Positions 32,197 to 35,239 of a stretch of 64,000 nucleotides of DNA are shown here, one piece after another. The translations under genes were made by a program, and so were the position numbers. Source of the stretch: Alkalihalophilus pseudofirmus OF4 (GTDB lineage: Bacteria; Bacillota; Bacilli; Bacillales; Bacillaceae_D); the NCBI RefSeq assembly GCF_000005825.2, contig NC_013791.2, positions 124,001-188,000 of the forward strand, read 5' to 3'. Positions within the stretch are counted from its first letter, which is position 1; each line of letters opens with the position of its first letter. The notes beneath the pieces were generated by a model that saw nothing but the letters and a program-made list of their open reading frames with translations, had not been told where the DNA came from and searched no databases.

Positions 32197-32234
32197 AAAA
32201 ACTCTCATCCATTTTGGATGGGGGTTTTTTGTTT
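32197..32234 (+). terminator. Terminator after rpsI
   Basis: AAAACTCTCATCC pairs with GGATGGGGGTTTT around a 4-5-nt loop and runs into a T-tract (32226-32234). It ends the rplM-rpsI unit and isolates it from the accessory genes that follow. Confidence 0.85.
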
Positions 32235-32314
32235 TTGTTTAGCTGATCTATAGACATTCGCCCTGCCCAATATAAATATACGGAATAGAGTGTAGTGATG
32301 GAGGAGGAGAGTAA

Positions 32315-32641
32315 ATGTCATATCCAAATATACCTGATATTAATTCGTTTGATGGTTTAGACCGTGAGCAAGTCGCGCTGCTGCTGTTAGCATCCATTGC
32401 ACTCGAAGAATTAAGCTTAGCTCATATTATGAATGCGGAGGCAGAAAAGCTGCAATATGCATTAGGAACATTACTGCCTGGGCAGACGCCCATAGTAGGA
32501 GATTTCGAAGATTTGCTAACGATTAACCGAAGCGTTGAACGGATGTTAAGAACAGTAATCAAAAAAGAAATGCTGCTCCAATTTAAGTTAGAGGATGTTA
32601 TTGATTCAGGCCTTCTTGAAAATAATGTACCTGGAGATTAA
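32315..32641 (+). CDS. Paralogue-cluster protein A: helical module only
   Basis: A 108-aa protein of a family I cannot name, the first of five related genes. Residues 14-29 read GLDREQVALLLLASIA, then EELSLAHIMNAEAEKLQYAL (31-50), a variable Gly/Pro linker, and NRSVERMLRTVIKKEMLLQF (71-90). It looks like two amphipathic helical hairpins without signal peptide, membrane segment or Cys. GGAGGAGAG precedes ATG. It sits behind the rpsI terminator, where B. subtilis has ybaJ, and is closest to protein C. No function is assigned. Confidence 0.85.
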   Translation: MSYPNIPDINSFDGLDREQVALLLLASIALEELSLAHIMNAEAEKLQYALGTLLPGQTPIVGDFEDLLTINRSVERMLRTVIKKEMLLQFKLEDVIDSGLLENNVPGD

Positions 32642-32650
32642 TTAGAAATG

Positions 32651-32690
32651 TAAAGCTCTTAACCAATGGGTTAGGAGCTTTATATATTTA
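32651..32690 (+). terminator. Terminator after paralogue A
   Basis: TAAAGCTCTTAACC (32651-32664) pairs with GGTTAGGAGCTTTA (32669-32682), one G-U pair, 4-nt loop, followed by TATATTTA. Gene A therefore appears to be a single transcription unit. Confidence 0.75.
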
Positions 32691-32786
32691 GAAGGAGCTA
32701 AGAAAAGGCAGTGCATCAATGACACTGGCTGTTTCAAGGGGTTATCTGAATGAATAAATTATAAATAAGAAAGGAGGTAAGCTAAA

Positions 32787-33095
32787 ATGGATAATCTACC
32801 AATAGAGCTATTACCAAAAGAAGGGTTAGACCGCGAGCAAGTAGCGTTATTGTTATTAGCATCGATCGCTTTTAAACAATTTAGTTTAGCCCACGTCATG
32901 AATGCGAGTGCTGAAGAGCTGCAAGCTGCACTTGGTTTAATAGAAAACCCTGAAGTTGGCCAAGCTGAGTCCTTAGACGAATTACTAGAAGCCAATAACC
33001 GATTAGAACAATCCCTTCAACATGTAATCAAAAAAGAGATTTTGCTGTTGTATAAGTTAGATAACATTTTAAAGTATTTGAAGGAAAATCCTTAG
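32787..33095 (+). CDS. Paralogue-cluster protein B: helical module only
   Basis: A 102-aa member of the same family. GLDREQVALLLLASIA is identical to that of A and C; after it the sequence diverges: FKQFSLAHVMNASAEELQAA and a second half LEANNRLEQSLQHVIKKEIL with LLLYKLDNILKYLKENP. The Arg-rich second motif of A and C (SVERMLRTV) has become LEQSLQHV. No Cys and no membrane segment. AAAGGAGG precedes ATG. A rather divergent paralogue, not a recent copy. Confidence 0.83.
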   Translation: MDNLPIELLPKEGLDREQVALLLLASIAFKQFSLAHVMNASAEELQAALGLIENPEVGQAESLDELLEANNRLEQSLQHVIKKEILLLYKLDNILKYLKENP

Positions 33096-33340
33096 TAAAA
33101 AGTGGAAGACCTTAGAATCTCTTAAAAACATAATTAAAAAAAGCCTGGTTATAAATGAGGGGTATTTTGAATCATCTGATAGAAAAGCTTTAATGAAGAG
33201 CTTACAATTTTGATTTATTAAAGAATGAGCAAGTACAGTGAAACCCTTGTTAAAACAGGCATTAGCATGCGGACAAGGGCCGTCCCCTTTTCATTTTATA
33301 TGAATACTTTAGAACTATAAACGAAAGGAGGACATTAAAA

Positions 33341-34120
33341 ATGTCAATGTCTAATATACCAGAAAATCTCAATTCAATAACTGGATTAGATCGAGAGCAA
33401 GTAGCTCTATTACTACTAGCTTCGATTGCCTTTGAAGAACTAAGCTTAGCTCACATCATGAATGCGGAGGGTGAGAAGCTGCAGTATGCGTTAGGGACTC
33501 TTGAAAATGGAGGGGGCCTTGCTGAGGACTTAGATTTAGATGGTCTTCTAGCTGTCAACCGCAGTGTAGAACGTATGTTGAGAACTGTTATAAAAAAAGA
33601 AATGCTGCTTCAATTTAAGCTAGAGGATATTTTAGATTCAGGGCTTTTAAATGGAAATGGACCAACACCGCCGCCAGTTTTCGAGTGTGCATGCTCAGCA
33701 GAGGCACTAGTCAATTCACAAACCGAAACGACAACTGCTTCATTTCCTGAAGAAGAATTAGAGGATATAGAGGGTAACGTAGCTGGACAACTACGTATTT
33801 GTGCAGATTGTGAGGAAGATATACGAATTAACTATAACTTCAATGCTCAAGGAGTCAATCTTCAATTCGATGCAGATGTAGAAGAATTAGATGAAGTAGA
33901 CTGTGATGATATAGAGAATGGTATTGTTACAGTAACAGGTACTGGAAGAGCTACAGGTACAGGTTTTGACCAAATGAACACACCTGTAAACTTTACGATG
34001 GTATTTGATGATGATGCGAATATCGTAACATTAACGTTAACAGATATAGATACAGGAGATGAGTTATACGTTGGAGTAACAAGTGCTCCTGTAGGTGTTA
34101 GTCCGTGTATTGAAGATTAA
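33341..34120 (+). CDS. Paralogue-cluster protein C: helical module plus beta-rich Cys domain
   Basis: A 259-aa protein. Residues 15-104 repeat the family module and are very like A (GLDREQVALLLLASIA, NRSVERMLRTVIKKEMLLQF). A Pro-rich linker (TPPPVF, near 109-114) leads to a domain of about 145 residues with alternating beta-type pattern, many Asp/Glu/Thr, and Cys at 116, 118, 154, 157, 188 and 256. The C-terminal domain has no family I recognise. GGAGG lies 9 nt before ATG. Its stop is 2 nt from the stop of the convergent gene at 34123. Likely extracellular or spore-layer structural protein, by inference only. Confidence 0.82.
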   Translation: MSMSNIPENLNSITGLDREQVALLLLASIAFEELSLAHIMNAEGEKLQYALGTLENGGGLAEDLDLDGLLAVNRSVERMLRTVIKKEMLLQFKLEDILDSGLLNGNGPTPPPVFECACSAEALVNSQTETTTASFPEEELEDIEGNVAGQLRICADCEEDIRINYNFNAQGVNLQFDADVEELDEVDCDDIENGIVTVTGTGRATGTGFDQMNTPVNFTMVFDDDANIVTLTLTDIDTGDELYVGVTSAPVGVSPCIED

Positions 34121-34122
34121 AA

Positions 34123-34644
34123 TCATATCCACAACAACGGGGGAGCTGGCTGTTGAATGGTATGTTGTTCATACCTTATCTGCAGCAGCTCCTTCTTTTC
34201 TTTATAATAACTCATTAAATCATCAAGCTTGCTATTGAATAATGGCAGGTCTTTTTTGTATAGGGGCGAGCTTTTTAAAAGGATGCGTAACGTTTTGATA
34301 GCTGATAATAATTGCTGCTGATTCTCTTCTAATTCATCAAGGTCAATGATGGGTGCTGCACCGTTGTTAGGAATGACCATTACATAATACTGGAGTTTAC
34401 GCTTGAGAAGATGCTGCAGCTGGCATAACTGAGATAAGCTCGCGTGAACGAGCAAGCAGACCTGTTTATTTGTTATCATGTCCGCCTCATGGATCCCTTT
34501 ATTCTTATCAATCGATTCAATCAATTCAATCAATTCAATCAATTCAATGCTTGCACCTAGATAAGAATTAAGCGCCTTTTCCATACTTGAAATAGACTTC
34601 AGTAATATCAATGGTTTATTTGCATGAGGGTTTGTTTTCATCAT
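34123..34644 (-). CDS. Paralogue-cluster protein E: divergent member with an ELI repeat
   Basis: A 173-aa protein on the minus strand from ATG 34644 (or the next ATG, 34641), with AGGAGGTGAGG ahead. Residues 59-92 (NKQVCLLVHASLSQLCQLQH onward) align by eye with the DREQVALLLLASIA module, and DELEENQQQLLSAIKTLRIL with the second half of A, so it appears to be a degenerate fifth copy. The N-terminal part contains IELIELIELIES, encoded by a 9-bp tandem repeat. No Cys-rich or beta domain. Function unknown. Confidence 0.7.
   Translation of the reverse strand: MMKTNPHANKPLILLKSISSMEKALNSYLGASIELIELIELIESIDKNKGIHEADMITNKQVCLLVHASLSQLCQLQHLLKRKLQYYVMVIPNNGAAPIIDLDELEENQQQLLSAIKTLRILLKSSPLYKKDLPLFNSKLDDLMSYYKEKKELLQIRYEQHTIQQPAPPLLWI
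34511..34546 (-). repeat. 9-bp tandem repeat inside paralogue E
   Basis: Four contiguous 9-bp units with period ATCAATTCA (the first varies at one base) encode Ile-Glu-Leu on the minus strand. The unit length is a multiple of three, so copy-number change would keep the reading frame. Confidence 0.8.
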
Positions 34645-34668
34645 CCTCACCTCCTAACAAGCTTGTGG

Positions 34669-35133
34669 TTAATCATGACAGCCGCAGTCGCAGTCACCTT
34701 CGCAATGACAATCGCATTCACAATCACACTCTTTTTCATGTTTATGGTCTGTGCCAAATTCAAACGCGCACCCGCAGTCATGGTGATGCTTATGATCATG
34801 ACAAGGGTCATAACATTTATCGCAATGTGAGTGACAATGTTTGAGGTCTATAATCTCCATGGTCGTCTCAAGTTTTCTAAGCAGCAGAAATTCTTTCATC
34901 AGAACAGAGTCGATCATTCGATTAACTGACTTATTAAACGTAATAATCTCGCCGGTATTAGGACAAGTAGGGAAGTTTAGATGCTTTCCGACAAAGGCTT
35001 GAATTTTCTCAGCTTCTGCATTGACTAAATGAGAGAGAGCTATCTCTTCTAAAGCGATCGATTCCATCAAATCGATCGTTACTTTACATAAGTCAGGACG
35101 ATGGGGCTGTTTTGGAATAATAGGCATACTCAT
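34669..35133 (-). CDS. Paralogue-cluster protein D: helical module plus Cys/His-rich tail
   Basis: A 154-aa protein. Residues 17-92 are a diverged family module: LMESIALEEIALSHLVNAEA and FNKSVNRMIDSVLMKEFLLL. Residues 99-154 hold 14 Cys and 12 His with runs such as HCHSHCDKC, HDHKHHHDCGC and CDCECDCHCEGDCDCGC, suggesting metal binding or disulfide/thioether cross-linking. AAGGAGGTC lies 8 nt before ATG. It is transcribed toward gene E, possibly together. Resembles in composition the Cys-rich spore coat and exosporium proteins, but I see no specific homologue. Confidence 0.82.
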   Translation of the reverse strand: MSMPIIPKQPHRPDLCKVTIDLMESIALEEIALSHLVNAEAEKIQAFVGKHLNFPTCPNTGEIITFNKSVNRMIDSVLMKEFLLLRKLETTMEIIDLKHCHSHCDKCYDPCHDHKHHHDCGCAFEFGTDHKHEKECDCECDCHCEGDCDCGCHD

Positions 35134-35164
35134 TTGACCGACCTCCTTAATACAATTCTCTCCT

Positions 35165-35172
35165 AGTGTATG
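35165..35172 (-). promoter_or_regulatory. Possible sigma-E-type -10 element ahead of paralogue D
   Basis: On the minus strand the sequence CATACACT matches the sigma-E -10 consensus (CATACAnT) about 35 nt upstream of the D start. The -35 region is not convincing, so this is a weak candidate that would place D and E under mother-cell control. Confidence 0.3.
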
Positions 35173-35239
35173 GGTATCTCCCTAAATGGTGCCTGTCATG
35201 AATGTTTTTAAATCCTTCATCTCCTGACAATTTTTCCAC

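Follow-up and report, generated by a model that had tools for sequence, protein, structure and literature searches.

A five-gene locus of Alkalihalophilus pseudofirmus OF4 related to the A-type endospore appendage subunit, with a recurring module-partner gene pair

Spore appendages built of small subunits have been described in several forms. The S- and L-type endospore appendages (S-/L-ENA; Ena1/Ena3) consist of PF13157 Enas proteins, while in the F-type (F-ENA) the subunits are trimerising DUF4183 proteins and an anchor (F-Anchor) and a tip protein (F-BclA) couple to the fibre, as excerpts of PMC11952670 state. The A-type (A-ENA) is represented by PDB entry 9ihh, a stand-alone fibre subunit of 101 residues described as ex vivo spore-silk and released on 2026-03-04, on which no paper was found among open-licence PubMed Central (PMC) papers. 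Here, we analyse a stretch of 64,000 nucleotides of A. pseudofirmus OF4 (contig NC_013791.2, positions 124,001 to 188,000; hereafter the window), in which a segment of ~3 kb flanked by rpsI and a DUF2521 gene holds five genes, A to E. A preliminary description of this DNA, made from the letters alone, recognised no described system, understandably given the release date of 9ihh; a relative now exists. The finding itself is real and more specific than first guessed: the locus represents a variant set of genes of the recently solved A-ENA fibre and not a new kind of system. We consider it highly probable that it encodes an A-ENA system, i.e. a protein fibre displayed on spores. Its genes are:

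32315-32641, + strand: A, 108 residues, a stand-alone A-ENA module; proposed main fibre subunit
32787-33095, + strand: B, 102 residues, a second stand-alone module, diverged (branch length 1.11); proposed minor subunit
33341-34120, + strand: C, 259 residues, module plus a 6-Cys tail predicted to be beta; proposed cap, tip or side decoration
34123-34650, − strand: E, 175 residues, of a small unnamed helical family found directly 3' of D-type genes; proposed partner of D
34669-35133, − strand: D, 154 residues, module of a distinct subfamily plus a Cys/His-rich tail; proposed base or anchor

A, B, C and D are homologous across ~97 residues, and a stretch of 16 residues, GLDREQVALLLLASIA, is identical in A, B and C. 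When the genome was searched with A, C was recovered at 5.0e-41, B at 4.5e-21 and D at 3.4e-13, similarities that lie far above chance. The same module accounts for the full length of 9ihh: the module profile matches it over its whole length with an E-value of 1.1e-31, and in phmmer searches against 9ihh_A the values were 6e-18 for A, 5e-12 for B, 1.1e-18 for C (residues 1-103) and 2.2e-9 for D. E did not return 9ihh among its matches up to an E-value of 10. The structure predicted for A comprises two helices (residues 17-50 and 64-97) modelled with high confidence (mean predicted local distance difference test score, pLDDT, 89.8) and has the same subunit fold as 9ihh (44% identity over 90 residues, root-mean-square deviation 3.0). 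The module appears as an extended N-terminal arm carrying a conserved MSxPNIP, followed by a two-helix hairpin. In C, helices are predicted at 18-51 and 66-99 and are followed by strands between 118 and 255 (block pLDDT ~53-86 in the tail). The tail of D packs 14 Cys and 12 His into 60 residues. Thus, the preliminary description was right about the five open reading frames (ORFs), with coordinates and strands as listed above, about the stretch shared by A, B and C, the two-helix module and D as a diverged copy, and about the Cys domain of C, predicted as beta, and the Cys/His tail of D. The evidence supports the shared module as a homologue of the subunit of a spore-derived fibre.

A fifth copy of the module lies unlinked in the same genome at C1:434611, ~276 kb from the locus (4.6e-46 to A). 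It encodes 238 residues, comprising the module and another Cys-containing tail (6 Cys) that was not recovered by a search with the tail of C. The gene is solitary (G000:C1:434611-435324; L002 and L177, G and L denoting genomes and loci of this study) and lies 3' of two-component-system-like ORFs. Collagen repeats were found in none of the five module genes of this genome.

Compared with 9ihh, the present locus adds a fusion to a Cys-rich beta domain (C), a Cys/His-tailed subfamily (D) and a partner gene (E). Its proposed arrangement follows the same logic as F-ENA, which according to the excerpts comprises a small subunit, an anchor that itself presents the subunit domain, and a dedicated fibrillum at the tip (PMC11952670). 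The building block differs, the A module being a predicted alpha-helical hairpin, and neither DUF4183 nor PF13157 Enas gave a Pfam match in A-E at E-values up to 1; an Enas search of the whole genome was discounted, since its controls gave no match. BclA-type collagen nap proteins differ likewise: elsewhere the module forms the N-terminal part of collagen or BclA_C proteins (16 and 3 of 74, respectively), whereas A-E contain neither a collagen repeat nor a BclA_C domain. An exosporium leader peptide gave no credible NCBIfam match in A-E at E-values up to 1, a search in which peptides this short are easily missed. PF10612 (CotY/CotZ/ExsY) was found neither in A-E nor in the genome at E-values up to 0.001, while the Bacillus subtilis control matched. 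More generally, Pfam and NCBIfam scans of A-E returned nothing credible, and lines for Sec8_N, Med21, HYR, DUF4940 and PRK10737 were dismissed as weak and below cut-off. Because these databases, as searched, lack a name for the fold, such genes are likely to be annotated as hypothetical or collagen-like. Brevibacillus CpbA/CpbB were not used as relatives, the passages of PMC5335551 giving no protein sequence.

We then considered E, which the preliminary description had called a degenerate copy. Against the module profile, residues 1-110 of E reach 13.4 bits, a value attained by 0/2000 shuffles (maximum 11.2), while whole E scores 8.4 bits, reached by 3/2000 shuffles, and hhalign of a 15-member E family against the module gave 20%. 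A clean profile of these 15 members, run against the ORFs of the fetched loci, matched two D-type modules (3e-5 and 5e-5). Compared with 300 shuffles each of their own, 7/15 members beat nearly all (0-2 reaching the score), and for the other eight the score was reached by 4-137 shuffles. We therefore count four sure module copies (A-D) and treat E as a separate family, which may, with moderate support, be a far-diverged fifth. E has no credible Pfam match, and its C-terminus is Pro-rich (PAPPLLWI in the window, PAxPW in the family consensus). Within E, a 9-bp tandem repeat of 4.6 copies (34508-34548) encodes an IEL repeat, the copy number of which could possibly vary.

What characterises the E family is its company. 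The clean profile identified 16 distinct members in the fetched loci, each closely preceded by a module gene in the same orientation (the E gene of L135 is cut by the locus edge and was seen whole in L146), and marginal matches in L140 and L147 (E-values 0.002 and 0.004) also lie directly 3' of a module match. Because the fetched loci are biased towards module loci, 299 genomes of the window's order were searched with the E alignment. The 10 strongest matches (E-value ≤ 7.2e-30) all fell in module genomes, 61-236 bases 3' of a module match and on the same strand; five weaker ones (one at 7e-7, four from one genus at 2-5e-4) fell in genomes without a module match. Nine of the 10 strongest were already represented in the alignment, G191 being new, and the search thus mainly shows that strong E genes are not found elsewhere.

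In a module tree with 34 rows, the 11 E-linked modules formed a single group (support 100/100; L010 was assigned to this D group because E follows its module), while A-type and C-type modules were intermixed. With 77 rows, including 50 of the 191 "other" modules drawn at random, a long branch (length 0.93, support 100/99) separated all 16 E-linked modules, along with three other modules and two Cys-tailed modules without a recognised E, from the rest; the E-linked modules do not form a strict clade (4 changes), and one of the three others, L147, was later found with a marginal E gene. Judged by these sequences, D is a member of a distinct module subfamily whose genes directly precede an E-family gene. 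In the window, in L142 (for one of its two C genes) and in L146, the module of C clusters with the stand-alone module encoded by the same genome. This pattern fits a division of roles in which D is dedicated to E and C has to fit the local fibre subunit; that C must match that subunit is suggestive, not established.

The gene set also recurs. All four kinds of gene were found in Anoxybacillus sp. L008 (A, C, E, D) and in L142 of G023 (C, solo module, second C, E, D). Three genomes of one genus (L143, L144 and L146) combine C with D-E, the solo module being present in L146 only, and solo modules accompany D-E in Salipaludibacillus (L046, L050, L148), Salsuginibacillus (L065) and L145. Tails with 6 Cys like that of C occur in L008, L142 (twice), L143, L144 and L146. 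In G062 and G206 (L143 and L144), two module matches each were obtained, one C-type and one D-type, plus E, and no stand-alone subunit was found genome-wide at E-values up to 1e-5.

Genome scans showed the module to be recurrent. It was found in 45/299 genomes and 33/116 genera sampled from the window's order, in 36/398 genomes sampled from the phylum and in 5/40 close relatives (the window's genome counted), and a scan of 84,980 species genomes with the module of C yielded 75 loci in Bacilli, Clostridia, Halanaerobiales and unplaced Bacillota assemblies. More than one match was present in 33 of the 45 order genomes, and by hand count two lay within 10 kb of each other in 32 of these 33. By simple rules applied to stop-to-stop ORFs, 239 distinct modules (window C being counted at least twice with slightly different boundaries) were classified as ~103 alone, 29 with collagen, 27 with Thr/Ser stalks, 22 with a short Cys(/His) tail, 12 with a Cys-rich globular tail and 38 with other tails; the remaining 8 are ORFs with a C-terminal module, at least one of which (L039) resembles an upstream-frame artefact. 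Among 81 long proteins (own-genome duplicates and most truncated G013 rows excluded), 74 were scanned with Pfam, giving Collagen in 16, BclA_C in 3 and Enas in 1 (below cut-off). For the module alignments, 6 of 91 diverse modules were left out and C was added (A1), and two Bacillus velezensis rows were then dropped (A2).

Upstream sequences were examined for promoter motifs. Among 189 module genes, 57 have CATANNNTA within the 100 bases upstream; in 100 dinucleotide shuffles the number averaged 8.8 and never exceeded 17. For 49 of these 57 genes the motif begins 21-60 bases ahead of the start codon, and AC was counted 14-21 bases before the motif in 48 cases, 34 of them at 18 or 19. This combination matches the sigma-K consensus, and such a pattern would mean late mother-cell expression. 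In the comparison with control ORFs of the same loci, the motif was found for 69/207 module genes and 20/196 controls, while the sigma-A hexamer TATAAT was not enriched (41/207 versus 37/196). Expression from sigma-K is an expectation of this analysis and forms no part of the 9ihh entry. Two features of the locus concern its transcription:

35164-35190, − strand: sigma-K-like promoter of D-E (AC, 16 nt, CATACACTA), starting 57 nt before the D start codon
32197-32229, + strand: terminator-like site after rpsI (consensus scan), kept upstream of the segment

Because of the terminator-like site, A-C probably form their own transcription unit or units. B and C have AATANNNTA at -34 and -38, respectively.

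Together, these results lead us to propose the following arrangement. A, perhaps with B, would polymerise into a fibre through the shared module, and C, whose module most resembles that of its own A, would plug into the same fibre as cap, tip or side decoration, exposing a Cys-rich beta domain that may be stabilised by disulphides or metal. D, with its metal-binding-type Cys/His tail, would be made together with E in the mother cell from the sigma-K-like promoter, the two forming a foot that anchors the base of the fibre to the spore coat. Several observations weigh against this arrangement or reduce what can be drawn from the data. In the fold list 9ihh is unremarkable by Z alone, and an unrelated chain reaches 9.6; fold similarity is thus supportive, and it is the sequence match that carries weight. 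The assignments of C as a cap and D as an anchor are suggested by the likeness to F-ENA. In the window, a full sigma-K-like site precedes only D among the four module genes (1/4), and A has none of these upstream motifs. The C of L008 does not group with the A of L008, and in G062 and G206, where no stand-alone subunit was found, the fibre would have to be made of C. E-followed modules in L010, L019, L038 and L139 lack Cys tails, so that the tail is not essential to the function of D-E. Finally, SpoIVA is present in 34/36 module genomes (absent in G382 and G586) versus 340/398 overall; being near-general, its co-occurrence adds little and was rejected as proof of a role in spores.

The preliminary description favoured a self-assembling spore-surface or exosporium set. 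Self-assembly, the spore surface and the use of one module with many appendages agree with the kinship to 9ihh and with the collagen/BclA_C, Thr/Ser and Cys-rich fusions; the notion of a layer fares less well. The module could build a two-dimensional lattice such as an exosporium or crust, given that sets of paralogues bearing Cys-rich appendages also occur in known lattices, that the tails of C and D are rich in Cys, and that a genome with no PF10612 match could need another layer protein, yet we regard this as improbable: the only solved relative was deposited as fibres, and of the 239 modules ~29 carry collagen and ~27 Thr/Ser stalks, long extensions that would suit protruding appendages. 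Even less probable, in our view, is that the fibres belong to vegetative cells or to a biofilm matrix. Excerpts of PMC4319854 report that ClpA-D, collagen-like proteins of B. amyloliquefaciens FZB42, affect biofilm and root adhesion, which may offer a parallel, and one collagen-like protein of B. velezensis carries the module; against this stand the ex vivo spore-silk origin of 9ihh and the enrichment of sigma-K-like promoters but not of TATAAT.

A more serious alternative, which we nevertheless think unlikely, concerns D-E. Instead of an anchor, the pair might handle metal or act as an assembly chaperone controlling polymerisation of A, B and C, as could be suggested by the metal-binding-type tail with its 14 Cys and 12 His, by the long and well supported branch of the D-type modules, and by E being a conserved helical partner without a known homologue. 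The tailless E-followed modules mentioned above fit a structural role of the module better. Returning to the fibre with a D-E foot, a broader proposal can be put forward tentatively, as one we hold slightly less likely to be right than wrong: the A-ENA module would be a general sporeformer plug whose carriers are built into or onto a spore-borne helical fibre; an ancient plug subfamily, D, and its partner E, itself perhaps a far-diverged plug, would provide a dedicated base; decorating plugs (C, collagen, DUF11-like, Thr/Ser and Enas fusions) would track the sequence of the local subunit; and whole sets would move between genomes as compact cassettes. If so, spores carry widely differing stalks, adhesins and Cys-rich domains by means of one common joint. 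The recurrence of the module with varied fusions, the D subfamily with its linkage to E, and the sigma-K-like promoters of the family are new here, and no description of the D-E pair or of the module as a common plug was found in the open-licence PMC literature searched. The link between module and structure provides a lead on many Bacillota surface proteins and points to a concrete candidate part in D-E, which probably forms the fibre's foot.

The locus is not conserved in position. A near-identical congener, G001 (RpsI 100%, RplM 99.3%, DUF2521 96.7% and CwlD 98.7% identical to the window), lacks the segment, as defined by alignment of the flanks:

32235-35202, no strand assigned: segment absent from G001

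TGTTT stands at both edges (32230-32234 and 35203-35207), and a single TGTTT is found in the empty site. The gap between rpsI and the DUF2521 gene measures 133 bases in G001 (stop codon included) and 132 bases in a second congener, G002, with no ORF of ≥50 residues in either; the earlier suggestion that the locus replaces ybaJ, which we take to occupy this place in B. subtilis, is accordingly not supported in this genus. G004 and G012 have 170-186 bases with no ORF wholly between the two genes and G031 has ~550 bases, while the 1.5 kb retrieved from each of the remaining relatives showed no rpsI. The segment was either gained here or lost in the congener, gain being the simpler reading because both congeners are empty. 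TruA, RplM, RpsI, DUF2521, Mrp and GerD were not found (E-values up to 1e-4) in the other module loci fetched (own-genome loci excluded), where the search for neighbour families matched only a CwlD-like protein in L018 (1.9e-7) and E homologues; a conserved position beside rpsI was rejected, as this setting was not seen at other fetched loci. A mobile carrier was likewise rejected, since A (the sole protein searched there) had no phage match, no Rfam element was found and no transposase appeared among the segment's listed ORFs. The GC content of A-E, 37-41% versus 42% for the window, is not diagnostic.

Several individual loci deserve mention. Among the loci searched, the module gene at L175 7234-7629 (− strand; = L133) is the one most closely related to the 9ihh subunit. 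This gene and a Cys-tailed module gene lie ~19 kb from a 4922-residue open frame (G277:C1:1928000-1930297; L176 1-2298, also L175) that is DUF11-like by eye, carries an A-ENA module at its end and could be a giant tip fibre. In Paenibacillus cremeus (L029 5995-6603), the module is fused to a weak Enas match (PF13157, E-value 5e-4, below cut-off), possibly a bridge between A-ENA and S-/L-ENA fibres. A tail domain, GSAWxxGxxxG..., is conserved after the module in 8 loci (L012, L017, L026, L036, L040, L041, L043 and L054); that of L012, scanned singly, had no Pfam match up to an E-value of 0.1. In the Clostridial loci L011, L020, L031, L040, L041, L043 and L076, a module-(Thr/Ser stalk)-Cys-rich gene stands beside a second module gene, divergently in 6/7, perhaps the same A/C partnership in another class. 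On B. velezensis pDMB05-1, the collagen-like protein carrying the module (L007 6001-8082) is accompanied by another module gene, whose tail contains Pro/Asp and Cys (L007 9722-10291), and by a nearby glycosyltransferase gene, and its collagen stalk may be glycosylated. Finally, G013, of the window's family, has 26 module matches in a genome of 2.6 Mb (L086-L111), and most of its fetched modules are N-terminal to long collagen-like ORFs.

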